Assembly: GCA_905250025.1 (NCBI GenBank)
Contig: CAJNOJ010000246.1
Coordinates: forward strand, 1-64,000
Length of the DNA stretch: 64,000 bases
From: Adineta ricciae
Taxonomy: Eukaryota; Rotifera; Eurotatoria; Adinetida; Adinetidae
Reading direction: 5' to 3'
How positions within the stretch are numbered: the first letter of the stretch is position 1; each line of letters starts with the position of its first letter. Of this stretch, positions 3,008 through 27,211 are shown piece after piece. Below the pieces are notes generated by a model. The model was not told the origin of the DNA. It saw only the letters and a program-made list of their open reading frames with translations, and searched no databases. Both the position numbers and the translations under genes were made by a program.

Positions 3008-3023
3008 CCCATGTAGCCGTTTT

Positions 3024-3325
3024 CGCGAAATAATGCACATTATAATGCATTATCTTACAATGGGGAAATAATGCTTCAATTACATGATAATGCAACACTT
3101 TTTAATGCATTTCAATTAATTAAATATCAATCATGAATTGTAATGCGTTAATAAGTAACACATTACAATGAATTAAAACGAGTAATGCATTTCAGTACAT
3201 GATACGATTTTCGTTGTCTTCAGCAGCATTTTCTACCAAAATAATGCCTCACAACGCATTAAAGTCGGTAATGCATGATAATTTCATGTATCGCTTATCA
3301 ATCGTTCTCTTGTATAATGCATTAA
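3024..3325. repeat. Left subterminal array of AATGCATT words
   Basis: About 300 bases in which AATGCATT and one-mismatch variants (TAATGCATTA, AATGCATTTC) recur every 20-35 bases in no fixed phase. The word is its own reverse complement, so orientation is undefined. The same word fills the other end of the element. Confidence 0.75.
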
Positions 3326-3832
3326 TCTTTTCATTTATTACCATCATTCCATTCCAACTGATTCCACCTTGTAGTTCATTTGATAAAAGATCTATTCATA
3401 AAAATATATGATATTGATCAGATCTCAGGTACAAAAATCATATAAAAATTGCGTTCAGTAGAATTGAGTACGATCATTCCAGTTTTGAAAATATTTTTTT
3501 CTAAGTTATTTGACTATATGAATGCTAAGCCATTGGAAGAGATTGCCATCTAACGGAATTAAATATGAAGTGCGGACTAAGATATAGTTGGTTACATTAA
3601 TAGAAACGCATAGTGTATTGAATATCGTGCATATATGTATTGATTTTCTTATTCATTCTCACGTGATTTACTGACTATTTATCATTATGTCTACCGATGT
3701 ATAAATTGTAATGTACTTCAAGTTTACTTGCACTTGATTATATAGCTAAAATACAAAATAGAATGATAAAGAATTACATAAGTTACTAATATATTTACCT
3801 GATTATTTGTAGATATCTGTCGCACGCGACGA

Positions 3833-5216
3833 ATGGCACCAAAGAAAAGGAAACAAGCTTCATCTAATCAAGGAGATACATTTGTTGTTTTACGTGATAG
3901 CAAAACTTCAACTTTACATTTGATTCCAACGAATCAGTTATCATATTCAAAAAGAGAGAACTTAAAGATTAGTACAGCGGCTACTTTCAATGGTGCTGGT
4001 GATGTATCTCGTGGGTTCAAGGGAATAATTCTTGCGAAAGGTAAATGAGTCGAAAGAATAAATATTGCATAAATTTTTCGTACATTAAAGGCACAAGAGA
4101 TCAATGTCAACAGAGTTTGTCGATAATAGAAAAGACAAACTCAAAAGATGGACAGATTTCAAATGAAGTAAAATCCGATTCATCACATACTTTACATATC
4201 GATGAACGTACTGAATCAAGTGATAGCGATGATCATGAAAATGCCGAAAACCAGCCCGATATCGAAAATAAAACTGGACCTGATTTACCTATTTCTGAAG
4301 CACTTGCTACATCAGTTCAAAAGAAATCGAACACTGCAGATATGTCATCTTCAACTTTTGTTAATACTGACACTTCTTCAGCTACGACAGCGAATTTAAG
4401 TTCATCTAGTGACGCTGGTGAGTACATTTTTACTGAGTCATTTACTCATCGTAATGTGTCAGCTCAATTGTTTATGTTTTATTTCTCCGTTTAGCATTAA
4501 TAGATTTAACGAATGGTGCTGGTATGGGAAGTAAAAGGAACGAAGCTTCAATGGAATCAAAAATTGTCACTAACAAGAAAATAAAACTTTCTGGAACATT
4601 TACTCAGGCTGCGTGTGAAAAACTAGCACGTGAAAACGTACAGTTGAAAAAAGAATTAGACATGTACAAGGAAAACTGGATGCGTGAGTTTACCTCTTTT
4701 ATCAAACTGTGTAAATGACTTCTTTTTTAGCACGACCAACTGGGGCAGCTAAGAATTATATCGTCGATGTTGGAAGAGTTTTATCCGGCGAATTAAATAA
4801 TAACGAAGAAGATAAAGGTGAAAAATTAGAAAACATATGCACGACTTTAGGATTGAACGAAAAAGAATTGAAATCTTGTGAGCACAAGACTGATATTACT
4901 AAGACTTGCCGACAGATCGTTAAAAAACTCTATTCAGAACCTAAAGAACGTGCTAAACTCAGCGTTGTAAAAATGGATCTCCAGGTGTTACAAGCAATTC
5001 ATAGTAAAGATTCTGATTATAATTTAACAGTATACTAGGTTTTAAAATGTTGTAGGTTATGCGAAACTCGCTCATCCAGCGATGTCAAACATTCAAAATT
5101 GTATGCTGAATAACGCTATCGGAAATGTCTTTGCAACTGATAAACGAAAATACGAAAACGACGAAACAAATGTATCTGAAGAAGAGGAAACAGAAGATGA
5201 TGACGTAACTAATTAA
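3833..5216 (+). CDS. Transposon accessory protein, possibly BEN-like
   Basis: Five exons with phase-1 introns: 3833-4040, 4091-4417, 4495-4683, 4731-5003, 5056-5216. They join in frame to about 385 aa. The N-terminus has a basic PKKRK stretch typical of a nuclear localisation signal. The middle is acidic and Ser/Thr-rich, a short helical segment (CEKLARENVQLKKELDMYK) could form a coiled coil, and the end is acidic. The region containing TCRQIVKKLY and LQAIHSYAKLAHP vaguely resembles a BEN DNA-binding domain; this is weak. It lies 215 bases before the transposase on the same strand. By analogy with two-gene En/Spm elements it may bind the AATGCATT arrays; that is inference. Confidence 0.6.
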
Positions 5217-5430
5217 CGTTTATAATAAAACATATGTACTCACCTTCAATAATATATTAATGTTGGAATGTTTGGCATCTTTCCTCATAGAGATTTTTTG
5301 TCTCATTGTATTGCGTTTGAATTGAAATGTTGAGTCATGTATGATTTTAAATACGTTTTTTTAATTAAAATAAAGCTAAAATAAAAGAAAAAGAGTTTAT
5401 CATAATTTTAACACTGTATTTTCAGGACCT

Positions 5431-8400
5431 ATGTCTAAAACAAACCGCTCGACTAATTGGCGCCGTAACGAAACAAAAAAAATCAGAAATGATCTCGGTA
5501 TAAACTATCATATCATAATCAGTTTTTCTCTAACTTTTTATTCAATTACCAGCTTTCGCATTCAGTCAAATCGTTACACGTGAAGATGCCAGTGATGTTG
5601 AATATGCGGTAAATCAAATCCCTCATTCAAATACTGATCAGAATACTGATAGTGGTATACTTGTCGTTTGTGATCAAGAAATGAAATCACCTACTGATTC
5701 TAATTCGGAAGAAACAGAACAAAAGAAGATGCACTCATTACCGTAAGCTCTTGTGAAAGGGATTAATATTGTCAGAACTATATAATATGATAATTGCTGT
5801 TTCCTTAGATTGAAATTTGAACCTATTGTAATTAACGATGAAAATCTAGGTGTAAATATAGATTCAGTTCAAATTGCAGTAGCATTAATAACTTTAAAGT
5901 CGAGACATCGTTTATCTAACAATTGTGTTGAAGATATTCTCGCTCTTCTTCGCGTACTTGGTGTTGATGTTCCATCAAGTTATAAAGCGTTATGTACTAT
6001 TCTACGGAAACGGTCGAGCACTCATCTGAATCCATCAAAATACACAATATGTCCTCATTGTGAAGATTTATCATCTGCCATGCATGAGTGTACAAACTGC
6101 GGAGCGAAATATTGGCCAATTTCGTCAGCGAATATTCCATTGTTTTATACGTATAGTATTTCTCAACAACTGAGAGCGATTATTGCTACATCTCCTGATT
6201 TACTACTAAGTAAAAGTACATCCACTAGCAAAGGATCTATGAGAGATATTACTGATGGTTGTGTTTATAAAAAACTGAAAGAAAATCAATCTGGTCTATT
6301 TATAACTCTTACTATGAATATTGACGGCGTGCAACCAAACAAAGGATCTGATAAAAGTCTCTGGCCAATCTTACTCGTTATCAACGAAATAAAGCGAAAA
6401 AAACGATTTTCTCTTGAGAACTTAGTAATTGCAGGAATGTGGCCAGGACCATCAAAACCATCACGTACTCAATTATCATTATTTTTCAAGAATATTGTTA
6501 CAGAGTTACAAGAACTAGAGCAAGGTGATCTGTTTCGGCTTTATTCATCCGATTATAACGATCACTCAGAGATTATAAAGATTTTCTTAATAGGTGCTTG
6601 TGTGGACAAGCCCGCTCAATCTATTGTACAATGTCTAGCTGAACCTACGGCGTATTTTGGTTGTGGGCATTGTGAACTTGAAGGTAAGCTACTCGTAATA
6701 ACAGTTAACGTATTAATCTCATCTTTTGTATTGCATACTTTTTTAGGTGTTAGTGTACCAACAAAAAAAAATGGTTCAGTTGTAAGTTTCGCAATTTATG
6801 AAAGTGATCTACCAGCAAATGAACGTACAAATGAAAGACACGATTTCCTTCTTCAACAAGTTCATGAAAATGAAACTGAGCTCGCTGCTAGTAGTTATCG
6901 CGGTCGACGTGGTTTAATTGAAAAACATAAAACTACATAAAAAGGTCTGAAAGGACCATGTATACTTCGATCCTTGTCCAGTTTTGATGTCGGGATGTCC
7001 TTTCTTGTGGATAGCTTGCATAATATCTATTTAGGGCTCTTTGTAAGTGAATTATTATCGTCTTTTTATCGTGGTATATAAACAACTGTTCTATCATAGA
7101 AACGAATGCTATCATTATGGCTTAGTGATGAACACAAGAACGAACCGTGGTCTGTATGGTCACAAAGAAACGAGCTGTCGATTCGATTAAATCGACTTCG
7201 TTTTCCATGCACAACTACACGTCAACCGCGAACTCTTCACAAATTTGCGAAGTTTAAAGGCAGCGAAATTCGACTTGTTTTACTTTTTGGCTATGCTATC
7301 TTTGAAAATATTCTTAAATCGAAATATTATTTGCATTTACTTTTACTTGTTCTCATAGTTCATTATGCAAATTTACTAGCACAAAAATGTTGTTAAAATT
7401 ATTATAATATGCATCTTTTATCTTACAGGCAGAATCACGATGCTTAACTAGCGGTATGATCGAGATCGTCGAAAATTTATGTCGCTCATTTCTTTTTGAG
7501 TTTCCAAAACTATACACCAATCGACACAACGTTCAGGTACAATTTCTAACTCACGGAATATTTAACACAGAATTGACCTGTTTCTTTTATAATCAAGTCT
7601 TATTCTGAGATTTTATTGAAAGACAATATATTTGATTTCAAATGACTTCTCACCTATTAATTAATTAGATATCTTACTCAATTAAAGAAATAGTTGTATT
7701 AAACTTTCTCTCTATCTTATACTAGGTTGTTCACTCTATCTTACATATTTCGAATACGTTACGTCGTTTTGGACCTTTATCAACATATTCAACATTTAAT
7801 TTTGAGAATCAGTTAGGTGAGTTTATATAGATGATTTCTTACTATATTGTATATTCAAACAGTACTTACCTTTAAGGTTTGTTAACTCGATCATGTTGAA
7901 GCACACGACGACATGCAATCGAGATAATGAACAATTTAATGCATTTACGCGACGCATGTTTTGAGCTAAAAGTTGGTCAAATGCATTCTGGTTTACACAA
8001 ATTAGCTTCAAAATGGTTACATATATCAGATTCCTATGTTGCATCATCTAATGATTGCGTTAAACTTTTACATCCGCTCGAAATTACTGACAATGTATTA
8101 AGTACTATTTTTATGGGTGGTATTGATTTTTACTCTACAGTATTTATACATGGAATAAGATTTACAAGTGCTGATTATGCACAAGGAAAAGTCGGCGATG
8201 ATTCCTCAATTATTTTTAAAACTGGTTTACAAGAAAACTTTGGTCGAATCCGTCGGATTTTTACAGTAAATGATACTGGTCCTATATTTTATGTTGATGT
8301 ATTTAAAAAAAACTAGTGATTTTGAATGTACGACAAACGGAATTACCTATTGTTATTCTCAAATTCAAACTGGATTCTTAAATGAAGCAACAAATGGTAT

Positions 8401-8694
8401 ATTTATTAGCGCAAGTGATATTCAAGAGAAATGTGTATTCTACGAGCGTAATAACAAACTGTGCACATTCTATAGATTTCCTAACCTTGAAGAATGCTCT
8501 TAAAAGAGCTTCAATACAAAGCTCGTTTTTTATTTTAGATTTAAAAAAGTATATTTCAGCGATTAAATCAAGATGACTTTATTTAATTAAGCGATGAAAC
8601 TTAATTTCAGCAAAAGAACAAGTACTCGAAGTTTCTTCCAATGAATATCATAATCGATTGATTGCTAATCAACTACCTGCCTAATAAATTCTAC
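5431..8694 (+). pseudogene. tnp2/CACTA-like transposase, decayed
   Basis: Exons recognised: 5431-5497, 5553-5742, 5809-6683, 6747-7042, then from 7100 with further exons to a stop at 8692-8694. An N-terminal basic tail is followed by a zinc-finger-like C..C..C..C region (PHCEDL, CTNCGAKY), then the tnp2 landmarks: NIDGVQP, WPILLVINEI, AGMWPGPSKPS, CVDKPAQS and DSLHNIYLG, with a later block TRQPRTLHKFAKFKG. Three lesions are visible: an in-frame TAA at 6938-6940 with homology continuing in the same frame (KGLKGPCIL), an in-frame TGA at 7897-7899, and a frameshift in an A run near 8303-8312 just before KKTSDFEC. The A-run shift could be a sequencing error; the two stops look real. Exon borders after 7,390 are approximate. 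Confidence 0.8.
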
Positions 8695-8832
8695 TTTTCT
8701 GAGTCAATTTGTAGAAACATTACCTTCTCCCACAAGATTTTTATGATTGATTATTTTATCGTAAACAAATTGTCAGTCACTGATAATCAACCATTATATA
8801 CCACTACGGATATCAGGTGGAATAATGATCTG

Positions 8833-9825
8833 AAATGCATTAAGAGTTTTGTCAATGTGTTTGTCTTGTAAAAATAATTTTGGGTAATGTTTGTTGATGC
8901 ATTGAGAAAACGTACATGCTTCGAAATTTGCGAATTTTAAAAATAATACTCTATAATGCAGTGCTACTTAATGCATTTCATACGTGTTTCATACATTACT
9001 TTCACGAATGCGTTGAAATACATTGATGTTATCATACTAACGTTATCCATCTGCAAATCATTTCACATAAGACATGATAATGCATTGAAAAGTAACGAAT
9101 TATGTGTTTCTTTCACATTAAAGCATATAAATGTCCTGTAGTGCATTATTTTTCAATGAATTACAACACATGAAGAGCTTTTTTTAAAATGCATTGAACT
9201 AAATTAAAATTTTGACAAGCAGTTAAGTAAGGAACATTTATTTTGAATAATACATTTTAATGCATTGAGATACAATGCATTATGCAGTATTTCATAGGTT
9301 AAGTGGAATAATGCATTGACATACATTGAATTCTGTATGGTAAAGACGATCAAAGTCGCAAAAAACAATAATGCATTGAATTGTGTTTGAAAAATAATCC
9401 ATTAATTCAGTTTTCAACATTTTGTTCCATTAATGCTATGTAATGAATTGATTTGCTGTGAGTTATAAGACATTTTACTTCATTAGTTAGAATAATGTAT
9501 TGAAGTGCATTACAATCGCGCTGTTGATTCGGGTTTGAATTAAAGCAGATAAATAACAAAATGCAATGCATTAGATTTCAATTGATTTTATAGCATTTTG
9601 CACATTATTACAAATCATGCGTTGAAATTCAATGAATTATTCAAGTTGCATGCACTTTTTAAAAATAATACTGTACAATGCATTAGAAAACAATGGATTA
9701 TTTAAAATTAAGACACTACTCTCAAAAATCAAACGATAAGATATGAAAAATAATGCATTATAATTTATTATTTTCTGTTTTTATAGAAAATAATGGAAAT
9801 CAATGCGCTACTTTTGCATTATTTG
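8833..9825. repeat. Right subterminal array of AATGCATT words
   Basis: About 1 kb densely populated with AATGCATT and variants, often as paired words such as AATGCATT...AATGCATT spaced 10-15 bases. It is three times longer than the left array. Confidence 0.75.
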
Positions 9826-9845
9826 TCCATTATCGGCTACATGGG

Positions 9846-11260
9846 TTGGAAGAGGAAACAGTTCTCTATAAAATACACATTTAGCAGATTATCTAACATT
9901 CTAAACAATAAAATGGTGCAGAAATCTTCGGTCGCGCTGCCGCACCATACCTTACACGTGTTCTCCCTTTCCTAATAAAATGAAGAGTTAAGTGTAGAAA
10001 GATGAGTGTTCATGTAAATTTCAAATCCAAAGGTGTCAAAATGTTTCTAAGTGTGAACTACAGACGTTGTCATATCAAAATCTCGTTCATTTAGTCTACG
10101 AGCATTGCTTTTCTTCTCTGCATTATTATACTTGAGTGTGAGACACATCCTCTTCTGGTGTCCAATTTGTGATTCGGTACGCTAGCAAAAACGAATACTA
10201 ACAATAATTTATACAAGATTCTTCGCTGTCTGTTTTATATAGTCACACCAACAGAAGCAAAAACATCAGAATCGTATTTTGGACTTGTGCTTCGACGGAA
10301 ATTCTCCTACTATCACAAATACGAGTTACATTACATTCTCAGAACGAATCTTTCAGTTTCGATGTATGATACATTTCCTTGCACATTTGGAGTTATGAAA
10401 AACTTTTACCTAATCTTTGTTCCACTCATAATGAAATTCTCTTATGGGCTGTTGACCTCAGGGCTGAACGTACGTTTAACATCGACCCTATCTCACATGT
10501 CCTCACCCTCTCAACCAACTTTCAGTGTCAAAACACCTTTCGAAACCATGTTTTATGAAGTTTTGAATATTTTCAAAAAAAATGTAATTTGACCTTTGAC
10601 CTTTGACCTGCGACAGACATACTCACAAATGAATTTCGATTTTTGGACCACTTTTTTCGACATGACCCTCCTTTCAGTCGAGGGAATAAATTATCATCGA
10701 TTACAACCGGCACACATTGTGCCATAATAAGGCACATGTATAATTTAATATAATAATATTAGCTGAAATACCACCAAATAGCACAGAAAAATAGAACTTC
10801 TTTTTCTCTATCAGACTGTGTAGGAAAGAACTTTTTTGAAGCCTACTATAGAGTAAAAAAGTGTCACTGCCACTATTTTTGGTATGTCCTAAGTATAATA
10901 AAATTAGTTGGATGAATTCATCAATACAGAATGCTCAGCTGTGAGTGAAGGATATTGACGCAGTTAGCAATTTTTTTATTTTAAGTTCACTCTGTGTCCA
11001 AGCGTGTGAGCCTCTCAGTGGGACTTTGAAATGATGTGTATAAAAAAGAACAAAAAGGAGATCACTCCCTATATACGAACAAGAAAAGAGAATAGAGAGA
11101 AAGAATGATATCGAAGATAACATGCTTTCTCGAAAAGCAAACGAAACAGAGGTCTGGAACACTACATGAACAGAAAGAAGAAAAATATGTGCGCACGTGA
11201 CGTGGTAGAGAGAATCAGTAGCGAGGATGCTCGTTAATAGCTTATAAAGGAGAATAAGAG
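9846..11260. other. No recognisable gene
   Basis: Short unsupported reading frames only. Three direct TTGACCT units lie at 10589-10609. A weak CCTCACCCTC stretch lies near 10500. Confidence 0.5.
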
Positions 11261-13713
11261 TTATAGCTTCATAATATAAATAAGTGCATAAAATGGTGGA
11301 TGTAAATCAATTGTTGATGATGTTGCTGCATGTGTATGAGGTTGATTTTGTCCACTAGTTCTTATTTTATGTGCATGCTTACAAGTAGGATAAAGATCGT
11401 GAGTACGATGAGCCAAATATCGACCCTCACTCGTTACAACTACCCTTGTATTTCGTTCGGAGTGGTGATCATAATATTCCTCTTTGTCATCTTCAGGCCC
11501 AGTCACACCACCATGATCATGACTCGGCATTTGTGATTCATTTAATGCTGCCCCGTACACCGCAATTAGTGGTACTACACTCGATGGCCCACCAGTGGTA
11601 TGAGGCTGTGTTTGTGCACCCGAACCTAGATTAGTAAAATAACACAGATTTTATGTTTTCCTTAAGAAACGCTGTTCACCAGAACCAATAACAAATTTAT
11701 CACGCAAATCTGGAGTACCATTAGTACCGTCGCATATTTCCCAACCGAGAGGAATTGCTTTTTCTGTACCATTCCTTAATCAGAAAGAATCAAAGATAGT
11801 ACTTTTTACACTCATAAAAATCAAAGAGTTATTTTCTTACCATAGAATGATACCTCCGCTAGGTATGTTGTTTAAAGGTTCGACTGTAAAGTCCACTGGT
11901 ATATTGATCATACTAATCGTACGAATTACTGCACCATTTGTCTTGTCAGCAGTCAATTGTTTTGAGATAATAGCCACTTGAAGACGATCTGTCAGATCGA
12001 GTAATTTATAGACGTGGAATGATTTTGGAATGAATTTTTCGCCTGTCCATTGAAATTCAGTCTGTTGTTGGGAGATTAATCTTTCTACTTCGGCTAAAGA
12101 GAAAATATCACGATTTATTTCCATAAGAATATCATAAAAGGAGTTCGAAGAGGACGATGAAGAACCACCTGAGCATCCTATGGTGATTCCAAGGAATGAA
12201 GCGCTAACACCACCACTAGCCGAGTTGCTGTTGCTCGATGTTGGTAAATTTTGTTTATTGAAATCGAAATATGTATTTGTATAATTATGTCGTTTAGTTT
12301 CAGTTTCATTGTAAGTGAATACTTTACTAAGTTCTGATGTTAATCGATCAGGATTTAAATCGAACGGAAACCATATTTGATCGAATAATGCTGCATCTAG
12401 CGAAATTTGTTGTGCAACATTCATACCTATTACAGACAAAGGTATCACTGCATAATACAGTTAGGTCGATACTTCCGAAGTCTAATCGCTTTTAAACAAT
12501 CCTACATCGTCCATCTGAGGTCAATGACAGAATCTAATGAGTGGATCACCTATAGATGCCGATCTCTTTTTACATGAGAAGAAAGTGATATGGACAATAT
12601 CCTCCTGGCACAAAACTGAATTTTCGCGAGCGTGAAAGAAAAATCTCACAAACCTACAGCTCTTTCCTGCTAAACGTCGAGAAGAACGATTTTAAAAGTA
12701 ACAAATTCAGTTAGTTGTGCTCTACGAACGAACGTGCGATCCGCTAGATCAAACAAAATTTCAGCAGATCGATGTTTACCTTGTTGTAGCAATGAAATAA
12801 ATTGCTCTTCTAGATCATTGATAAGAGACGCTGTAACGGCATTTATATTTTCCATATAAATCATTTTCTTGACATTTGCTATATAGTTTTCAATAAATTT
12901 TGATGCTTGATTACGATGAATATATTGTGCGGTTATACTACCCCCATCAACTATTGTTTTGCTCAGTACACTTTTTAACTGATCACTAGTAATTGAAAAG
13001 AAATTCGTTGTCATGTGTTTAAACCCAGCAAAATAGAACGCAATTTCAATTTCATAGTCACCATTAGCAACCTTTTTTGCGATAAGCTCAGCAGTTTCTT
13101 TTGATGAACATTGAAATCGAAATGTCATTGTAAGACTGTTTGGATGCACTACACGATAGGGATGTACACCGGCTACTGGTGATGCTCTACCACTTACAAT
13201 AAAAGCTGTTAGAGAGTCAATCATCAATGGAGCCACAGTCCAAGATTTTGAATACTGTGATACATTTGGATCATATTTATCAACAATTGCTTTGCGCGCT
13301 AATTCTTGAATCTCTGGGTTGCCTAGCATTAGTGTTAACCGTATTTCAGTGTTAGAAGACCATATCCACCTATCGCCCAAACCATTCTGAGAACGTGCCA
13401 TAACTGGTACATAATAAAAGATCCATTTTTGTGGTGTTAACTTATTTTCATTTTCATTTGAAATTGCACCATAAATATAGACTTGTGAACCTTTATAGTC
13501 AACTATTGTTAATATCTGTGTAATAGCAACGGTTGTAGCAAGACTTGGATCATTACTCGTATAGTTACTTGTGTCATTGATACTGATCACAGGTTCACCA
13601 TTAATCAAGACGTTCAAGTTTAATAGAAGAAAAAAACAACGTAGAAAAGCATAGTCATGTTCTATAGAAGAAAATACCGTTAATAGATATTTGCACTCCA
13701 TATATATATACAT
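11261..13713 (-). CDS. Secreted protein with C-terminal phage tail-collar-like domain
   Basis: Exons on the minus strand: about 13713-12690, 12447-11841, 11774-11680, 11625-11261. The last three junctions are clean GT-AG and in frame; the donor of the first exon is unclear. The first exon begins with a hydrophobic stretch (LRCFFLLLNLNVLI), probably a signal peptide. The middle contains a Ser/Gly-rich linker. The end carries hallmarks of the tail-collar fold of phage and bacterial fibre proteins: PLGWEICDGTNGTPDLRDKF, then HDHGG, NQPHTHAA and the terminal PPFYALIYIMKL. The first about 330 aa are not recognised. It may be an extracellular adhesion or carbohydrate-binding protein, with the collar domain perhaps acquired from bacteria or phage; that is inference. 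Confidence 0.7.
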
Positions 13714-13772
13714 TAATTACGTGCATTGTCAGAGGTAAAGGCGATTTTTATCTCGTAGTTATTCCTTATCTT

Positions 13773-13799
13773 GAGGGTGTGGGTGAGGGTGTGGATGAG
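13773..13799 (+). repeat. G-rich telomere-like tract
   Basis: GAGGGTGTGGGTGAGGGTG-type units on the + strand, opposite in orientation to the tract at 13907-13943. Confidence 0.55.
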
Positions 13800-13855
13800 A
13801 GTTGAAAGAAGAGGCATCTACACCTTCACACCCACACCTTATTACTTCCTTAAAT

Positions 13856-13898
13856 CCATCTGATGAACTTCTTAGCAGAAGTCAAATCTAGATAATGG
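13856..13898 (+). ncRNA. Hammerhead ribozyme relic (GAAA to CAAA)
   Basis: CTGATGA is at 13860-13866. Stem I pairs CCAT (13856-13859) with ATGG (13895-13898). Stem II pairs ACTTCT (13867-13872) with AGAAGT (13877-13882). The palindrome TCTAGA sits where stem III belongs, followed by TA as cleavage site. The second core element reads CAAA in place of GAAA, losing the conserved G12, so cleavage is unlikely. A C-rich telomere-like tract starts 9 bases later, the same order as the relics near the left end. Confidence 0.5.
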
Positions 13899-13906
13899 CA
13901 GTTTGT

Positions 13907-13943
13907 CTCACCCATCCTCACCCTCACCCACACTCTCACCCTC
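13907..13943 (+). repeat. C-rich telomere-like tract
   Basis: Repeated CACCCTCACCC units directly after the hammerhead relic. A shorter C-rich stretch lies at 13819-13840 before it. Confidence 0.55.
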
Positions 13944-16895: not shown

Positions 16896-19800
16896 TCTTC
16901 ATTTCTCATTAAAATTTAGTGACTCACCACTCGTTTGTCTTATATTTTTTCTACTAACTGAATTATATACACTTTTTACTTCTTATAACCATTTCATCTG
17001 ACGATTGTTCGTTTCATTTAACTTTTTTTATTCTAGCATGTTTGTGAGAATTTATTGACATTTTTATATACTGATTTCCTTTTCCGTTACACGCATACAA
17101 AACATTTTAATCATTGAAATAGATGTGTGTGTTTTCTATTATGAATTATTTTTCTCTGCAAAGATCTTCAGTTTTGTAACGAATCGAATTCAAAGCATTA
17201 TTAATTGAAATGTCAAAGTATTTTCTAGAATTAAACACACAAAAGCAAAAATACGACTAAAGGGTACGTAAATAAATAAAAAGCAATTGGATGGTTTATA
17301 GTTTGCAACAAATAACAGCGATATTGCCAAGATCAATAGCATATGAATCTCTAGGATATTTTCTATTTTTGAGGCATGCATCATCTAATTACTTTTTTGG
17401 CTCCTTGCATTGTCACTCTCACTCAGCCGACATCGCTTTCAAAAGCGGTGTGTAATCTGGCAATGAGAGGTAGAGAAATCGTGTTCTGCTACAAAACTTC
17501 AAAACGCATTCTTTTATCATACGTTCCCCTGAACTCTTTTCAAAAACGATGTTAACATTTAATTTGAAAATACGATGGCGATTGCATGAGTATGTTAATA
17601 AGGAAGAAAAAGGAAAGGCAAAAAGCTGTCTTACCATCGACTCAATTTCCTCGATCATAGATTTGTTTGCAAATAGAGTGACGCAGTTTAACGATTGTAT
17701 TATTGGCCGAGCCTAAAAAATTTATATTACGGCAAGGTAACGACATGCTTTGACCATGTTTTCTTTAAGGATTTGATCTAAAAAATCGATACATACTGCA
17801 AAAAGTAAATGCAGAATAACAAACCCATAATTTCGTTTATGCATGTTTTTATAGACTTTTACACTGAAAAAAAGATCCGCTTTCATGATGAGGGTATTGT
17901 ATTATTCGTTTTTAGGTTTATTATTCTACTTTTTCGTCAAAAGGGTATATCAGCATGTTTTTTCTGAGGGAGATTTTATTACCCCTCTGAAAAAAGCTCA
18001 TTACTCTACGCCTGAGGGTAGATTCTTTTATCTGATTTTCCAAAGGGTTTCTTATTCTACGGTTCGCTATTGATTCATCCGCTTCTTAATCTAAAGATTT
18101 AGCACTGTCCTTGAGAAATTATGTTCGATACCTTTCCGTTAGCAAGGGTATTTCATTCATCGCCCAAGAGTTTAGTCAACTTCTTCCTTTGCAAAGGAAG
18201 GTTTATTCTTACACTCTTTCGTTCAAAAGGTTTATTATTATGTGTGAAAGGGTTTATTCTTATACGCTTCTATTAGAAAGCTTTATTCATGTACACACAA
18301 GATTTGACTCTTTTATCTCTCGATTTCTGGGAATTTATTGTTTGACGCATATGTATTGATTCTCCTACAGTTTTGTAAGAATAGTTTGTCATAAGATAAT
18401 TGAGTTGATGAAGTGTGAACAGATCCTGGGAAGAAGTCGTTTAGTGGCGTAGATTATTTTTAATAATGATTCCATTATATCTCAGTTTGAGGATTACTCT
18501 GTTTATGTATCATTAGGGATGCACGTTTTTTTCAATATTATATGCTAGACCGATGTATTTACTTTTATCATGTATCTTGTTGTGCGTGTTAGATATTCAC
18601 ATATGAGATACAATAGCTAGAGATGATGATGGACTTTCTACCAGATGAATCTTTTTCTAATGTTTTTCTATAAATGAAGTAAAGAATGTATGCGTTATGT
18701 GGAAGGAACGAATTGCATAGTCTACGGAATGCGCAATATATTCTTTCATGATTGTTATTCCTTTTTATTTATCTCTCGGTCAATAAATGCTGATGATATG
18801 AAAAAATAAAGGCGAATCTATATTAATTCAGTTAATCAATAAAATCTAATGACTATACTCATATCAAACTGTTGCATTGAACACGAAAGCTTAGTATCAT
18901 TATTTATTTCTCTGTTTTTCAACAGATCGAAATGTCTTTAGCCTTGCTAAAGTGGCTATACACATAACAGTTCATCATAAAACGATACCAATTTTTGAAT
19001 TACTTGTGATTTACATAACGTATATAGTGTTCTATAACGAATACAATCTGCATATAAATCTCTTATTTCTCGGCAACATCCAAATAAATTTCATGAGATA
19101 GAAACACTTAAACAATTTAAATACAATTTATATTGGTACTCAACAGTAAAAGAAAATAGATTTGAATATTGGAAACGTTTTACAAATAATGATGATATGA
19201 TACATCGAATTCTACTGACAATTAACATTATCAGATGATGATCAGGAAGCGATGTTTTAAAAATTTTCGTTATCATTCAGTTTAGTAGATGGTGCAGAAA
19301 CCTTGGAATCGATGATGGATATCAAGAGTGTTTGTTTCCTTCATCTTACAATTACGTGAATTTTTTTTGTAGCTATTTAGTAATATCACAGCAATGGCCC
19401 AATTCTTCAGACGATATACTATGTTAAGCGAACACTCGCCAATGTGATAGCCTATGATCCAATTGAGAAGTACAATATCGAGTAAGTCATGCCGCGAAAC
19501 TATTCATATAAGAGCATATTGAAAAAATAGATGTTCATGATACCTCTAATTTTTTTCAATTTATCAGGAATCAATTGTTTTCATCACGATTGGACAGTTT
19601 CGAATCAAGAGTGTACAACAGTTCTGTCTATCGGTGATGATGATAGTTCCCCAGTGGCAATCTAGACAATTATGTTTCTTATTTCATTCAATGGGTATTG
19701 AAAAACACATTATTTTATTGATAATTCAAGTTGGTCTAATAAGCAAGAGACACGCTTTCCTTAAAGAAAATGTTATTTCTTTCTCAAAGCATATTTTACT

Positions 19801-20361
19801 TTGAATTTCTACATTCTTTTTCACACCGAATTGAAGTTTTTAATAGAATAAACCATATATTACTAAGCATTTTTAACTGGAGAACATTTTTCAGATTATG
19901 ATCAAGTTCCATTCTCGATCTAACCATTGAATCTTTTCTTTAAAATTAGCTGTGCAACACAAGCAATTCGATTTCATTAGCAGTGCGATTGTCATATTTT
20001 TAAAGGTACTTTTGACGATTAACAATATCGTAAGGACACTCAACATCTATAGATGATTTTACTTTTGTTTATTGTAGAATGTAACCGAAATGTAAAATAA
20101 CCACTTTTCATTTCAAGTGAGAACACTCATCACGTTTTCTTGTTTCTTATTCTCATCATTTTATGCAATTCAGTGGACATCGACCACGCACTAACATAAT
20201 AAGTAAATATTTTTTTGTCTTTCTTTTCTCAACCAACAGCTCAATTCGAAAGGCATGGATCTGCAAGAGCATGATAAGTGTTATATTACTATTTGCTTTA
20301 TCTTCTTGTTCTTTTATAGTTGATTTTCCAATTCGAACAATATCATGCATCAAACTGCCTT
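16896..20361. other. Long gene-poor stretch
   Basis: No supported gene was seen in about 3.5 kb. It contains the word repeats at 17889-18345 and scattered coding-like fragments too short to identify. Confidence 0.4.
17889..18345 (+). repeat. Imperfect repeats of an AAAGGGTTTATTCTTA-like word
   Basis: Variants of AGGGTTTATTCTTATACG recur about eight times at 25-60 base spacing, for example AAGGTTTATTCTTACAC near 18208 and GGGTTTATTCTTATACG near 18250. The word is not palindromic and no terminal inverted repeat was found around the block. Confidence 0.45.
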
Positions 20362-21173
20362 CCCATGTCGCCTCTTTTTCTAGGACTGCGTCGCATTTGC
20401 GCGCAGTGGCCATTTTGCGGCGCAACTGCGCGTAACTGCGCCGCAGTGGTCGCAATCAGAGTCACATTAAAAAAACTGCGCTTACTGCGACGCATTTGCG
20501 ATCGCATCTGCGCCACAGCTATCGCAGTCAGTCACATAAATGATACTACGCTTACTGTGTCGCAGTTGTGCGCATCTGCGACGCAGTTACCGCATTTGTC
20601 TAACTCATCTATTGGAGAATTTTGAATAACAACCGTTAGTGCTAGCAGTCGAGTATAAAAGGAGATGCAAAAATCATTCAAGCTTATTTTTCAGTTNNNN
20701 NNNNNNNNNNNNNNNNNNNNNNNNNNNNNNNNNNNNNNNNNNNNNNNNNNNNNNNNNNNNNNNNNNNGGTGGGTGCTGCGAATCAGCCATGGGCCAGTGA
20801 AAAATGGACTATCGTTCTTGGAAAGTGAAGAATAATTGTAGGTGGGTGTAATTATCGCTAAAAGCAGGACCTTTCTGCCGATCAGGCCCTTCTGGTGATA
20901 TTATTTCGCTTGTTACAGATGCTTTTGTTGTGAAAATAGTGTGCTTCTGGTCATTTAATAAATAAGAGAAGATAGATTATAATGCAGAATAGTTTAGGTG
21001 GTTTGATCACCACTTATGATTGTAATAGTTGGTGCAAAGAGTCGAAATAGAGATGAGAGGTGATGCGATCATTGCGTCGCAGTTGCGCCACAATTTTTCG
21101 CAATTACGGGTCACAGTGCGATCGCAGTTGCGGCGCAACTGCGTCGCAATCTGACCGCAATAGCAAACATGGG
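20362..21173. mobile_element. Non-autonomous relative of the 3,008-9,845 transposon, TGCG/CGCA words
   Basis: CCCATGTCGCC starts at 20362 and the reverse complement of CCCATGTTTGC ends at 21173, sharing CCCATGT with the large element. Both ends are packed with quasi-palindromic words such as TGCGTCGCA and TTGCGCCGCA (20390-20600 and 21065-21160), the subterminal-array layout of the large element with a different word. No transposase is visible. A 71-base gap (20697-20767) lies inside. Left flank TT and right flank TA do not give an exact duplication. Confidence 0.55.
20697..20767. other. Assembly gap (71 N)
   Basis: A run of N inside the TGCG/CGCA element. Its internal repeats probably hindered assembly. 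Confidence 0.95.
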
Positions 21174-21394
21174 TAAAGATTCCATTTAGATTATGACCTG
21201 AATAATCATTTGGATCTTGAGGATTTAATGGCTAATATTCAACTGGAGAATGTTCAAGAACTAATTGATCATAACTCGAAAGAAAATTACTAATTACAAC
21301 ACACATATTTATTACGAAAAGTTTTGAAAACATTTTTCAAAATCTAAAATACTCAAAGATTATTTGTTTTTTTTTATAAAATAAAAAAAACAAT

Positions 21395-22657
21395 TTATAA
21401 ACGTGCATCAACACAATCTTTAGGTAAAATTCCTTTAATGTCATAAATGATTTTTTTTGAAGATTTAACTGAAGAAAAGTCTAGGCTTTTAAATTGTTGA
21501 TGAGCAACTCCAATAACAATGCCATGATAGTCATCAAAAATGATATTTCTATCAAAATCTTTTATCTCAATGCCAAATTCATCGAAAACACGTTTTTTCG
21601 ATGCCCATGGATCGACAATATCGACATGACAACCAAATTCTTCTAAATCTTGAACAATATCAATTATTTTTGAATTACGAATATCGGGACAATTTTCTTT
21701 AAAAGTTATTCCTAAAATTAAAATATTTGAATTCATAACAGATATTCCTTTTTTAATCATTGTTTTAATAATTTCCGATGAAATATAATGTGACATTGTT
21801 TCATTGATTCTTCTACTTGCAAGAATAATTTCCGGAATGTAGTTTAATGATAAAGACATATTAATTAAATAATATGGATCAACAGCTATGGAATGCCCGC
21901 CAACAAGACCTGGTTCAAATGGTAAACTATCCCATTTTGTTCGTGTTGCTTCTAAAACTTCATGTGTATCAATTCCAGCTAAATGAAATATACGTGAAAG
22001 TTCATTTACAAATGCAATATTTATATCACGTTGAGAATTTTCAAATAATTTCGCAGCTTCAGCTATCTTTATCGAAGAAACCATAAATGTTCCTGCTTCG
22101 ATTATTTCTTTATAAAGTGCATCGATTTCTTGAGCGATTGCAGGTGTTGAGCCTGATGTTATCTTTCGTATTGTTTTTATTGTATGAAGTTTATCACCGG
22201 GATTGATACGTTCAGGTGAATAACCACAAAAGAAGTCAATATTATATTTCAGATGACTTACTTCTTCAAGAATTTTAACACAAATATCTTCTGTTACACC
22301 TGGATAAACAGTTGATTCATAAATAACAATATCATTTGTTTTTAGGACTTTTCCAATTGTTTCAGATGCATTTTTTAATGGAAATAAATCAGGACGATTA
22401 TTTTCATCAACGGGTGTTGGAACAGCAACAATAAAAATTTGACATTCATACAAGTCCTCCATGTTTGTTGTAAATTTTAAATATTTCGATGATTTCAAGT
22501 TTTCATCGGACGATTCAAGATTTGGATCATGACCAGTTTTTAATTTTTCAATACGTTCTTCATTCATATCATACGCTACTGTTGGACGAGATTTTCCAAA
22601 TTCAACAGCTAATGAAAGACCAACATAGCCAACTCCAACTATTCCGATAGATTTCAT
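21395..22657 (-). CDS. UDP-N-acetylhexosamine 6-dehydrogenase-like protein (TviB/WbpA type), catalytic Cys replaced by Ser
   Basis: A single 420-aa reading frame without introns, usual length for the bacterial family that oxidises UDP-GlcNAc/GalNAc at C6 to the uronic acid for surface polysaccharides. The N-terminus has the NAD-binding GIVGVGYVGLSLA. YESTVYPGVTED, the family lysine region AEAAKLFENSQRDINIAFVNE (the K lies within KLFEN) and PFEPGLVGGH follow. Where the family has GGHCIGVDPYY this protein has GGHSIAVDPYY (codon TCC), so the nucleophilic cysteine needed for the second oxidation step is absent. The C-terminal domain (ILGITFKENCPDIRNS) is intact. The bacterial character and lack of introns suggest horizontal transfer. 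It may be inactive, stop at an intermediate, or have a changed function. Confidence 0.9.
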   Translation of the reverse strand: MKSIGIVGVGYVGLSLAVEFGKSRPTVAYDMNEERIEKLKTGHDPNLESSDENLKSSKYLKFTTNMEDLYECQIFIVAVPTPVDENNRPDLFPLKNASETIGKVLKTNDIVIYESTVYPGVTEDICVKILEEVSHLKYNIDFFCGYSPERINPGDKLHTIKTIRKITSGSTPAIAQEIDALYKEIIEAGTFMVSSIKIAEAAKLFENSQRDINIAFVNELSRIFHLAGIDTHEVLEATRTKWDSLPFEPGLVGGHSIAVDPYYLINMSLSLNYIPEIILASRRINETMSHYISSEIIKTMIKKGISVMNSNILILGITFKENCPDIRNSKIIDIVQDLEEFGCHVDIVDPWASKKRVFDEFGIEIKDFDRNIIFDDYHGIVIGVAHQQFKSLDFSSVKSSKKIIYDIKGILPKDCVDARL

Positions 22658-22916
22658 CTGAAATAATGAATTATCTAAGAGTCAATTTATTCGAAATACA
22701 ATTATAATCATATGGTAAATTTGTACGCCTCCTTATTCATATGGATGCAAAAATATGATTTGCTATTACCTTTCGTATTTTGTTATGTTTAATCGACATG
22801 AAAAGAAAAAAGGGCAATTCAAAAAGTATCTTTTTCTCAACATGAGAAAAGGAAGAGATTCATCCTAAAATAAAAAGTAGGAAATAGATGATAATTATTG
22901 AAAATAAAATTCTTAC

Positions 22917-25038
22917 ATAAACATTTCTTCGTAGTAGGACCACATATTCCATTTGTACAATCTGAAGCTTTGCTACATGATTTTCCACTTGCACATTTTG
23001 TTGTACAAACAGTTCCACCGCAATCAACATCAGTTTCGTCTTGATTTCGTAATGAATCACTACACGTTGCAGCTAAAATAAATATTTTATTCAATTTCAT
23101 AATAGATCTTTACAGAAAAAAGAACATTCTCCCAGGTCGATCATTCCGGCGACGGGATTCGTTGAAATCTGAGTCGGTTCCGGTACAGCTCTTCTCGATT
23201 CCGGCACAGTTTTCGCCGGTTCCGGCAAGTAAATGGTCGGAAAAAGAACCTAACCGGCCGGAACCGACTGTGCCATAATAACTTGGATAACTTCGGCATG
23301 TTTTATCCGGTGGTCGACAGAATCCACTTTGACAGTCTGCATATTTTCCACAACTCTTTGTATCTGAACATTTAGCTGAACAAACTGATCCACCACAATC
23401 AGTATCTGTTTCATTTTGATTTTTGTATCCATCGAAACAACTGGGTGCTAGAAATGTTCATTTAAACAAAGATTTCATTATAAATCAAAGTGATAATTAC
23501 TTTGACATGATTTATCTGTTCCTCGACAACATCCACTTGTACAATCGGAATTTCTTGCGCAATATTTTGTAAGAGCACATGTTGCTGTACAAATCAATCC
23601 ACCACAGTCAACATCAGTTTCATCTTGATTTTGAAATCCGTCTGTACATGATGCAGCTAAAAAAAGATTCAAATATACAAAAAAACGTGAATTCGTTTTT
23701 TTTAAATACTTCGACATGTTTGGTCTATTAATCGACAATAACCACTAGTACAATCAGAATTTTGCGAGCATGTTTCGTTATCTATACATTGAGTTGAACA
23801 TATTGATCCACCACAATCAACATCTGTCTCATCTTGATTTCTAAATTCATCAGAACAGCTTGGTGCTAGAAGTTTCATTTCAAAATATTTCATTCAAAAT
23901 ATCAAACTTACTCTGACATGTTTTGTCATTTGAACGACAAAATCCAGTTGTACAATCTCCATCTTTTCGACAAGTTTTATTTAAAGAACATTTTATTCCA
24001 CAAATTCGTCCTCCACAATCAATGTCGATTTCATCTTGATTTACATAATTATCCGTACAAGTCGGTGCTAAAGAATAATTTCCAATCAACTTTCTTACAA
24101 ACATAGTGACAAATCCGGTTTTATTTTTACTTTGACATGTTTGATCTGCTGTTCTACAAAAATCACTAATACAATCTGAATTTTTCGAACATGGTTTTGT
24201 ATTTTCACATTTTGAAATCGAACTTCCACTTCCACAAACTAATGTTGTTGTTTGATTTACACATGCTAAACAAATGTTGATAAAACAAAAATCAAATCCG
24301 AAAATCAAGCTTACAACTAATTGTCGTTGGAAGTTCTTGATGATCAAACGAACAGAAATATAATAAAGTGGAAATAGTTTGATTATTATTGAGATGAATT
24401 GGAATTGTTATTGAAGAAAATAAATTTTTTATATTATATATAATATGGTTTGTGGAACGTTGTTGACACAATATTGTTCCACAACCACGAGGATATTCAA
24501 TGACAAACTTGATTCTTAATACATTATCATTGAGATGCTCGGAATTTTCACATTGAATTGTTCTTGTGAAAATCGAAAGATTTCAGTTATTCAACAAAAA
24601 AGAAATCTTACTCTCGTTTCTGTCTCTGACCATTTGTGACAATAACAAATCCCGCATCGATTATTTGTATTCGATTAAGTATTAAGATTGTATTTAACTG
24701 AAATAAGTCATTAACGATAGGAGAGGAAAACAAAGGAATGAAATAACCTACATTTGAACTCAGTACATCAATATCTGATACGTTTAAAGATCCAACATTT
24801 GTTAAATTTGTTATGTAATTTAATTCATAGTGTTTTGTGCCTTTTATATGTAAAAACAAGAGAAATAATCGTTTAAAAGCTAAAAATACAACATACTTGT
24901 TTTCGTTTCTGGGAAAACAGCATTATTTTGTAAATAAATCGGAATAAGACCAATGATAGTAACTCCGCCAGTAATTAACATTGAAAACAAAAAGAAGGTC
25001 ATTATAAGCAACGATAAATAACAAGAATTGATTTCCAT
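22917..25038 (-). CDS. Type II membrane protein with six cysteine-rich modules (cluster 2), 3' end incomplete
   Basis: The first exon (25038-24897) encodes a short cytoplasmic start and a membrane segment (LIMTFFLFSMLITGGVTIIG). Exons from 24840 to about 24310 encode an unrecognised ectodomain with several possible N-glycosylation sites. Six exons between 24265 and 22917 then encode cysteine-rich modules, five with NQ(D/N)E(T/I)D.DCGG and the first divergent (CVNQTTTLVCGSG). Most introns are phase 1. After the last module a GT donor (22916) points to another exon that was not recognised before the dehydrogenase gene. A 157 bp MITE sits at the donor of the fifth module. It is closely related to the 28,160-29,803 cluster. 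Confidence 0.7.
23131..23287. mobile_element. Small MITE with CCGGTTCCGG words at a splice donor
   Basis: It starts CCCAGGTC and ends AACTTGGA, a degenerate inverted terminus differing only by transitions. The interior is dense in GGTTCCGG/CCGGAACC words. The related cluster at 28,161-28,170 has the empty site ACATT-TT-ACTTCG, while here the flanks read ACATT-CT and TA-ACTTCG, fitting a two-base target duplication with one change on each side. The insertion changes the module's donor from GTAAAA to GTTATC. Confidence 0.6.
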
Positions 25039-25369
25039 TTGATCGAAATTAATCTGAAAAAGAAAACAAGTCATATTTATATAGTATAATATAAGAAAAT
25101 AAAATCATCGACATCGATATTTGTTGACATAGGAAAATAAGTCGAATGTCATTTTATAAATGTCTGATGTATATTTTCACGATTTATATCGATCGTGAGA
25201 AGCAATGTTCGTATGTTACAGTCACTCTGACCTTTGACATAATTATTTTCTCGAAATTATTCAATCGCAAAATTAAGACTATTTATGCGTTTTTCTTTTA
25301 ATGAATGACAAGAAAAACATGAAAATTGTCAATGTAACGCTGAAATTTCATCGAATTGAAATTGATGAG

Positions 25370-27211
25370 TTAAACAATTTCAATAGTAAAAATGGATAGA
25401 TCGGAAGTATTTTTCACATTTTTCTTCGGTCTACCCCATGATAAATTTCCAACATTATAAAAAACGGTTGTAATAACAGCAATAGATATAAACGAAGTAC
25501 ATAATTTATTTAAAATATAACTATGAATAAATTTCGGACATATTCTTCGAAGTTTTGCTTTCAAAAATGATGAAATAAAAAAATAAAATGTTGGATATAA
25601 AACAAGAAATAATTGAATTATTAATTGAATAAGTAGAACATTTTGTGTTAATTGATAAATAAATAAAACAATATTAAACAATCTAAAATAAACTACCCAG
25701 GTCCAACAATCCCATACTCGGATCCCATCGGATCCTACAGGAATTCGATGGATCCGATGAAATCCTGGTGACGGAATCGCATTGGATTCCAATGGTCTCG
25801 GATCCGAAACATGGATTTCCTGGGTTTTCTAAGGGTCATCATAGAACATAGCTAAAAAGATCGCTCATAAAATTTGCAACAACCGACGGGATATTTCAAG
25901 TCGGATTCCAATGCAATTTCGTTTCCAGGAATCCGATCGGATCCAGCATCGGATTTGTTGACCTGGGTAAAGCGATTCTAGCCATATCAAGAAATAAAGA
26001 TAAACGAATTATTGGATGAATTCGACTTGAACAAACACCAAGTAAGGAATTAAAAAAAGCATTACTTCTCCATCGACGGCGTTGTGTTACAAATCTGTAT
26101 AAACTATGTGGAGGTTTCGTATAACAAACAGCTGATTCAACTAGACATGTTTTTATTTGATGATATTGAATCAGATACACTAAACGACGATCTGTACCAA
26201 GTCTTTGAGCTGTTGTTTGAATAAGTTGACTTTGACGAGGCATTTTTGCATAATCAGATGTAACATGCGAAAATTTCTCATCAACTTGAATCATTGTAAT
26301 ACAACCAGGTAGACAAGTAATTCTTCGAAAGATATTTTCAAAGCTTCTTCGTAAAACTTGTCCATATAAATATTGAAAATTTTGATAAAGATTCCAAAAT
26401 CCTCCAAAATGATTATAGAAATCGACCATAACGATGCCACATGCAGCACCAACATGTCGATATTCCACTTCATCAATAAGACGTGTTAATGAACCTGATC
26501 GAATAAAACTATCAGCATCTGTGAAAAACATATAATCATATTTTGATATCGAATACAAATGTTTGACTTCTTTTCGGATTAATTTTCTAAAATAAACTGT
26601 TAATGTTGATATATCATTTCTTAAACTATTAAATACATCAAATGATAAGATAAGACTATCTTTCTTTTCCATATTAATCTCTTTTTTAATAATAACACCT
26701 AGAATTTTATGACAATAACCATAAACAATATCACAACTAATATTTTGATCTTTCCATGAATTGTATTCAATATTTATTTGAGATTTTATCGTTTTGTTTA
26801 AAATTGAATCAACATTTATCGAATTTCCATCAGATATAATAATAATTAATAATCTATATAATTTATATAAATTATAAAAGGGTAAGATTATAGCACATAA
26901 GATATCTTTGATTTTAAGAATAATTATTACTACAAGTACTCCTTGTTGGCCACCAAATAAATCAATAATTGCAATACATATTATATTTATTATAAGATTA
27001 AATATAGAAAATATCGTTTTAATGTAAACTATGTATTGAAATGCTTTTTATTAATTTCGATTTTGAATAGATTTCATAAAGATTTTTTCCAATATTTTTC
27101 AATTAAAATTCCACATAAACCGAGTAAAATGATCACAATTATTGCCGTTAATGCAACTATTGTTCGAGTATTATTTATATTAACACTTGATGATAGACTT
27201 CGTTTTATCAT
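25370..27211 (-). pseudogene. Chitin-synthase-like GT2 glycosyltransferase split by a MITE
   Basis: An open frame from about 27045 down to 25968 encodes a membrane segment, a nucleotide-sugar-binding-like ISDGNS, the TDAD metal-binding motif, LGTDRRL (where chitin synthases usually have EDR) and QRRRW, the processivity motif of beta-glycan synthases. After the MITE the frame resumes at 25693 with membrane segments and NLSWGRP, resembling the C-terminal SWG(T/R) motif. A separate N-terminal membrane segment (start 27211) is interrupted by a stop near 27080. Removing the 272 bp element and one TA restores IAL-VYFRLFN in frame, so the insertion broke a previously continuous coding region. Target sugar unknown; chitin or a related glycan is inferred. 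Confidence 0.7.
25696..25967. mobile_element. MITE with CCCAGGTC ends and GGATCC words
   Basis: Ends are CCCAGGTCCAACAA and the reverse complement of CCCAGGTCAACAA, with TA on both sides (25694-25695 and 25968-25969) as target duplication. The interior is crowded with GGATCC, GGATTCC and ATCCGAT words. At 272 bp plus TA it shifts the reading frame of the glycosyltransferase. The ends resemble those of the large transposon (CCCATGT). Confidence 0.85.

Follow-up and report, generated by a model that had tools for sequence, protein, structure and literature searches.

What kind of transposon keeps its extreme ends nearly constant while filling the DNA just inside them with a short word of its own? 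The question is raised by positions 1-64,000 of contig CAJNOJ010000246.1 of the rotifer Adineta ricciae (assembly GCA_905250025.1, 130 Mb), a stretch of 64,000 nucleotides referred to here as the window. It holds four elements, E1 to E4, which an earlier note had described as one family with CCCATGT or CCCAGGT ends (CCCAKGT), each member packed with its own palindrome. We consider it likely, as a single joint reading, that E1 to E4 are animal CACTA transposons of the TRC type together with short non-autonomous derivatives, and that the word of an element is bound by an accessory protein encoded beside its tnp2 transposase.

The ends are where the note had placed them. All seven intact sites in the window, four CCCAKGT and three ACMTGGG, are ends of E1 to E4. 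Both ends are present in E1 (3008-9845), E2 (20362-21173) and E4 (25696-25967), and the right end of E3 has decayed to ACTTGG at about 23286. Elsewhere in the assembly, whose other contigs and loci are given C-numbers, CCCATGT or CCCAGGT stands at both ends of C281, C482, C618, C346 and C555. Target duplications of 2 bp accompany E1, C281, C482, C618, C346, E4 and a miniature inverted-repeat transposable element (MITE) in C788.

The pairing of these motifs was compared with that of 60 permuted motifs in 245 kb, comprising the window, ten loci picked by tnp2 and accessory matches, and C346 and C555, picked by tnp2 and E2-type word or end matches; the test was not blind for these loci, as the window sequence was given and the others were picked beforehand. 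There were 16 convergent CCCAKGT pairs. Eight had equal 2-bp flanks, compared with a control mean of 0.23 and a maximum of 2, and these eight represent seven elements because two pairs in C788 have one end in common. A palindromic word occurred at least four times in 10 of the 16 pairs (control mean 0.12, maximum 2 pairs per motif).

Related elements of the assembly thus have in common CCCAKGT ends, a 2-bp duplication and a tnp2 (Transposase_21) transposase; CCC ends together with such a duplication and Transposase_21 are the marks of animal TRC elements in the published descriptions consulted (PMC1636069, PMC4298943). The unity that had been proposed holds at the level of a superfamily and not of one family, since the transposase of C555, the autonomous relative of E2, is far from that of E1. 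E1 carries the fullest set of features:

3008-9845, plus strand: E1, read as a CACTA/TRC element, 6838 bp, with the 12-bp terminal inverted repeat CCCATGTAGCCG and the word AATGCATT
3006-3007: left 2-bp target duplication TT (partner 9846-9847)
9846-9847: right 2-bp target duplication TT (partner 3006-3007)
3008-3330: left subterminal AATGCATT array
8820-9845: right subterminal AATGCATT array
3833-5216, plus strand: accessory gene of five exons (3833-4040, 4091-4417, 4495-4683, 4731-5003, 5056-5216)
4731-5165, plus strand: accessory C-terminal domain, possibly BEN-like, with the motifs TxRQI, EYARLxHP and AIGNVFA and one intron inside
5431-7042, plus strand: tnp2 transposase exons (5431-5497, 5553-5742, 5809-6683, 6747-7042), core 5846-6685
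7900-8315, plus strand: open frame 3' of tnp2 and perhaps the C-terminal part of that gene; a frame break follows

The flanks of E1, CTT and TTG, agree over 2 bp only. Its tnp2 matches PF02992 at 34.1 bits (cut-off 28.6), and the transposases of C555 and C346 score 41.9 and 42.4 bits. The accessory frame, spliced by eye, is intact across its five exons. Pfam scans gave no match for the accessory and no family above cut-off for the frame at 7900-8315. Because the fourth exon of tnp2 contains an in-frame TAA, at 6938, this copy is probably dead; a later frame break lies at about 8314.

One word per element

In E1 the word AATGCATT occurs exactly 17 times, whereas no palindromic 8-mer exceeded six occurrences in any of 100 dinucleotide shuffles, and E2 holds eight exact copies of TGCGnCGCA. 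GGATCC is in modest excess in E4 (five copies against a shuffle maximum of 4) and occurs three to seven times in each of 20 other E4 copies, which are not independent. E3 showed no enrichment of palindromic 8-mers against dinucleotide shuffles, and its word CCGGTTCCGG has a different reverse complement, CCGGAACCGG, and is a gapped inverted repeat, CCGG-nn-CCGG. The description of a private palindrome in every element therefore applies to the arrays of E1 and E2, applies in a modest form to E4, and is wrong for E3. The high density of palindromes that had also been reported is not a property of the elements as such. All 8-mer palindromes in E1 number 65 (shuffle mean 43, maximum 64), 17 of them being AATGCATT, and those of E2 number 5 (mean 4.2). 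Totals lie near shuffle values, and what is enriched is one word per element.

We extended the comparison to 13 loci with a transposase: E1, C281, C618, C482, C788, C835, C847, C312, C225, C586, C378, C346 and C555. A scan for clustered palindromic 8-mers and for 9-mers with a free centre, to which no words were supplied beforehand, ranked AATGCATT first in C281, AAGTACTT in C618, AATCGATT in C482, C788, C835 and C847, and TGCGnCGCA in C555. In all, arrays were recognised in nine of the 13 loci, eight by scan and one by eye, each built of AATGCATT, AAGTACTT, AATCGATT, TGCGnCGCA or GCGYTATARCGC. Subterminal counts, set against 200 shuffles with maxima of 4-6, were 15 (E1) and 9 (C281) for AATGCATT, 11 for AAGTACTT (C618), and 11, 12 and 10 for AATCGATT (C482, C788 and C835, respectively). 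The right side of C847 holds seven copies of AATCGATT and seven of ATTATAAT, with a shuffle maximum of 5. Several overlapping non-palindromic 8-mers rank equally high in these counts because they are extensions of the same core. The three words of the E1-type elements have one design: AATGCATT, AAGTACTT and AATCGATT all read AA-NNNN-TT, with the cores TGCA, GTAC and TCGA, respectively. For the E2 type, paired TGCGNCGCA was found at 21 places genome-wide and its reversed pattern at none, each place being listed on both strands and several falling in one array.

Spacing was examined in E1, C281, C618, C482, C788, C847 and C835, over 8-80 bp and for words with at most one mismatch. Exactly 10 bp is the commonest start-to-start distance (20 of 139). 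Helical phasing at 10.5 bp was not supported (p ~0.16). For trial periods of 8.5-9.3 bp p was 0.0001-0.001, without correction for repeated units or for nine periods having been tried.

Some arrays and candidate words stand apart. At C89:279213-287752, two left-end and two right-end E2-type TGCGNCGCA arrays occur with one CCCATGTCGCC end, probably nested or duplicated elements. A 329-bp CCCATGTAAAAA MITE with a TA duplication (C788:9349-9677) is nested in the left arm of the larger AATCGATT element. C847 contains, at about 8570-9896 and apparently inside a gene, a foldback-like element that is bounded on either side by CCAAGGGGAAAAGTACGGAATC and carries GATTCCA in long tandem arrays; its ends are unlike the CCCAKGT group, yet it is likewise packed with one word. 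GATTCCA was accordingly rejected as the word of the C847 transposon, and ACTTGTAC, present in C312 and C788, was dropped because it could not be placed inside a defined element. Plain (AT)n ranked first in the scans of C225 and C586.

Accessory proteins, transposases and a proposed reading of the words

A search of the assembly with the C-terminus of the accessory gave 25 matches at E <=1, and one with tnp2 gave at least 35 at E <=0.001, the best 40 candidates being scored. In 11 loci, including E1, the two genes share a strand, with the accessory upstream of tnp2; the accessory match of C378 is weak (E 0.32) and the tnp2 of C586 has four stops. The N-terminal part of the accessory is recognisable in nine loci, the best E of a locus lying between 1e-35 and about 0.04. 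Accessory-type C-terminal domains were also observed at C315:103191, C741:6146 and 11270, C845:11196 and 17411, and C193:180969 and 198633, on contigs that have no tnp2 match among the matches listed. Those of C193 are weak, and all of these may possibly be solo genes or parts of another element type.

The words were compared with a tnp2 tree of 12 rows, from which C586 was left out, and an accessory-domain tree of 14 rows, from which C346 and C555 were left out. C482 and C788, both with AATCGATT, pair with each other in either tree, starred each time. The tnp2 tree also joins C835 with C847 (89/98), again two AATCGATT loci, and the accessory tree puts them with the array-less C586 in a starred group; in that tree all four AATCGATT loci belong to one open group of six. 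C618 is the sole locus with AAGTACTT, and the transposases of C346 and C555 stand apart as a clade of their own on long branches. In this small test the words are consistent with the accessory groups.

The words have also outlasted considerable divergence, expressed here as proportions of synonymous (pS) and nonsynonymous (pN) differences. Between E1 and C281, accessory exon 4 has pS 0.95 and pN 0.20, and tnp2 has pS 0.64 and pN 0.13; the accessories of C482 and C788 differ by pS 0.77 and pN 0.35, and those of C835 and C847 by pS 0.76 and pN 0.28. The separation of pS (0.64-0.95) from pN (0.13-0.35) in the compared pairs indicates that the genes are under purifying selection. Each of these pairs retains one word, E1 and C281 doing so though their accessory synonymous sites are saturated.

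The explanation that we favour, and regard as probable when taken whole, is that the accessory corresponds in animals to maize TnpA and has the word of its own element as its binding site. In this mechanism the tnp2 transposase would act on the nearly invariant termini, and the accessory, probably as a dimer, would bind the many copies of the word at both ends, bring the ends together and mark the DNA as a substrate, as TnpA does in maize En/Spm. Specificity in the E1-type elements would reside mainly in the 4-bp core between the constant AA and TT. The word would shift between lineages when the DNA-binding domain of the accessory and the array change together, and non-autonomous elements that retain a word could be moved in trans. 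We infer that word and accessory have co-evolved in this way, through binding.

Alternatively, it may be the tnp2 transposase that binds the arrays, through its N-terminal part for instance, leaving the accessory another function such as regulation of transcription. The transposase tree fits the words as well as the accessory tree does, and the E2 type has arrays although its candidate accessory is not demonstrably homologous. In maize, however, TNPA and not the transposase recognises the subterminal repeats, according to the published account as available (PMC2613891), and the C-terminal part of the accessory is a small domain whose best match in the PDB, a weak one, is a DNA-binding BEN domain. 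Binding by the transposase appears unlikely. We give little credence to the proposal that host DNA-binding proteins occupy the words, or that these form structures such as hairpins or positioned nucleosomes, no protein of the element reading them. Palindromes can form hairpins and AATCGATT pairs are frequent elsewhere in the genome; however, palindromes of 8-9 bp without spacers are poor hairpins, the word varies by element family and is common to elements with related proteins, and the occurrence of different words in one genome argues against a single host factor. Least probable of all is that the words arose incidentally, from base composition or the local expansion of repeats. This would suit the separate GATTCCA array of C847, the AAGTACTT pairs in minisatellites and the recurrence of some spacings (10, 15, 46 and 60 bp), but word counts above those of dinucleotide shuffles, irregular spacing, and the three locus pairs that keep the same word at accessory synonymous divergence near or at saturation speak against it.

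Several observations weigh against binding and co-evolution of the accessory with its word. E1 and C281, which share AATGCATT, are not a resolved pair in either tree, and their outer arms still align (81-82% over the outer 184 bp on the left and 98 bp on the right, the remainder in weaker or shorter patches), so that part of their shared word copies is plain homology. Several tree forks are open, and the pairing with clades rests on three word types only. At C312, C225, C586 and C378 (four of the 13 loci) no convincing array was found, nor were both ends; the ends of C346 hold GCGTTATAACGC and GCGCTATAGCGC, which were noticed by eye only, the scans having passed them over; and the stretches in which words were counted lack a pair of identified ends as limits in C788, C835 and C847. 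Outside such elements, AATCGATT pairs number 70 against 8 for the reversed control and AAGTACTT pairs 39 against 18, partly in minisatellites. In E2-type loci, further open frames lie downstream of tnp2 in C555 and C346, with aligned pieces 54% identical to each other, and this candidate accessory showed no detectable relation to the E1-type one. Equal 2-bp flanks are absent at E2 (TT/TA) and C555, and no autonomous partner of E3 and E4, with CCCAGGTCGAWCAWT ends, was found in the assembly. The proposed pairing of words with accessory clades is thus upheld as consistent within the E1-type group, within the limits set by three word types, open forks and the four array-less loci.

The genome-wide AATCGATT and AAGTACTT pairs were too unspecific to serve as element finders. 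Minisatellites with AAGTACTT pairs lie at C237:132635-132820, C390:70509-70727 and C441:1121-1366, at constant spacings of about 56, 67 and 57 bp, respectively.

A possibly BEN-like domain and known relatives

We took the C-terminal domain of the accessory to resemble a BEN domain, a likeness to which the Pfam and fold searches lent no support. Pfam BEN (PF10523) did not match the accessory, and its genome scan gave two sub-threshold matches at other loci. The AlphaFold2 model of the C835 frame, which contains a 15-residue read-through intron in mid-frame, is all helical (predicted local distance difference test score, pLDDT, 75.5; predicted template modelling score, pTM, 0.50); Foldseek with this model gave a best E of 1.4 and no BEN domain among 34 matches. 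Accessory profiles A1, A2 and A4 found no BEN structure. The match came from profile A5 only, a 13-row alignment of the domain with 98 profile positions. With A5, BEND6 (7yul) ranks first of 177,635 PDB sequences (sequence E 0.044, domain E 0.34), covering positions 10-93 of 98. Its score exceeded those of 2000 of 2000 shuffles, whereas of 2000 shuffles 24 reached the score of BEND3, 167 that of Insv and 514 that of BANP. Against four BEN sequences hhalign returned E 0.0074, a value for this one comparison, and a probability of 5%; against three it returned no match. As a yardstick, BEND6 as query finds Insv only at E 0.0095. A profile match to the designed protein NF6 was set aside, as it spans at most 54 positions.

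BEN proteins bind short palindromes, namely ACATGT for NAC1 and CCAATTGG for Insv and Elba1 (PMC7764960), and CGCG is also among the sites of Insv, Elba1, NAC1 and BANP (PMC7764960, PMC11472053), as far as the available text of these papers goes. The likeness to the present system thus lies in short palindromic sites and in a weak BEND6 match over nearly the whole accessory domain; the differences are that a role in transposons is not mentioned in the available parts of either paper (PMC7764960, PMC11472053) and that Pfam BEN does not match the accessory. That the domain is BEN-like is a possibility we rate a little short of even on these profile comparisons. More tentatively, animal CACTA elements might use BEN-type dimeric accessories in the role of plant TnpA, the core being switched together with the protein and such accessories being a possible source of solo host genes. 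If this were true, AA-TGCA-TT, AA-GTAC-TT and AA-TCGA-TT would provide, in one genome, a ready-made series of sites each matched to its protein.

The earlier comparison with En/Spm was right in kind, and animal TRC elements are closer. As described in the main text of DeMarco et al. (2006; PMC1636069), SmTRC1 and its relatives also have Transposase_21, CCC termini, 2-bp direct repeats and a second protein, for which alternatively spliced transcripts are a class feature. The role of such an accessory in animals is postulated in that text, and none conserved between species is reported there, whereas here the accessory is conserved over 11 loci of one genome. The terms 'subterminal' and 'palindrom' occur 0 times in the same main text, where the one repeat described is internal, of a 15-bp motif, in contrast to the word arrays found here. 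Spongebob/EnSpm-4N1_HM of Hydra likewise has CCCAG.. ends and a 2-bp duplication, but its exact transposase could not be defined owing to stops and frameshifts, and no word array is described in the portions consulted (PMC4298943). Maize En/Spm and soybean Tgm resemble the present elements in their family-specific subterminal motifs, with which the DNA-binding accessory TNPA is thought to co-diversify; they differ in having CACTA ends, a 3-bp duplication (soybean Tgmt) and motifs of 7, 10, 12 and 17 bp that are not short palindromes like the E1- and E2-type words, to judge from the sections available (PMC2613891). Of the features that define En/Spm strictly in plants, CACTA termini are absent, the ends being CCCAKGT, and a 3-bp duplication is absent at E1 and in the 21 E4 copies; subterminal repeats and an accessory are present, binding by the latter being putative.

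In the literature on CACTA/EnSpm, BEN domains and bdelloids or rotifers, as far as its text was accessible and with Repbase outside the search, no animal CACTA group with both a conserved accessory and lineage-specific palindromic arrays was found. How CACTA accessories and subterminal repeats diversify jointly is a question posed for plants (PMC2613891, in the part consulted). A single assembly with three comparable combinations of word and accessory, and two more distant words, makes co-evolution directly testable, and non-autonomous elements become assignable to a helper by their word.

The short elements E2, E3 and E4

20362-21173: E2, non-autonomous, 812 bp, with an N run at 20697-20767, unequal ends CCCATGTCGCC / CCCATGTTTGC and the word TGCGnCGCA
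23131-23286: E3, short and non-autonomous, with left end CCCAGGTCGATCATT, a decayed right end and the gapped inverted-repeat word CCGGnnCCGG
25696-25967: E4, a MITE of 272 bp with CCCAGGT ends and GGATCC words
25694-25695: left target duplication TA of E4 (partner 25968-25969)
25968-25969: right target duplication TA of E4 (partner 25694-25695)

E2 is probably a shortened relative of the 6.3-kb element with tnp2 at C555:35165-41431, of which it is best read as a derivative because the two have both ends and the word in common. Copies of E3 and E4 elsewhere keep the CCCAKGT ends that had been proposed, as seen in four and 20 copies, respectively. All four E3 copies retrieved end in ACCTGGG, one of them with equal 2-bp flanks, which the window copy lacks. 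E4 belongs to a high-copy family, with 391 first-look candidates genome-wide, of which 40 were scored. The 15-base family terminus, from which the window copy is one base off, has 205 exact copies in the genome and its reversed control has none. Equal 2-bp flanks were found in 13 of 21 copies (20 retrieved and the window copy) and equal 3-bp flanks in 0 of 21.

The insertion of E4 is shown by a homologous contig: C621:10531-10830, its empty site, matches the joined E4 flanks over all 300 bases at 95% identity with no net length difference. Joined with a single TA, these flanks give an uninterrupted frame of 99 residues. E4 interrupts this open frame, with a QRRRW motif, at window positions 25546-26119, the homologous C621 being without E4. 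QRRRW is typical of chitin synthases; this piece of the frame gave no Pfam match. An E2-type end lies on the same contig, at C621:3348.

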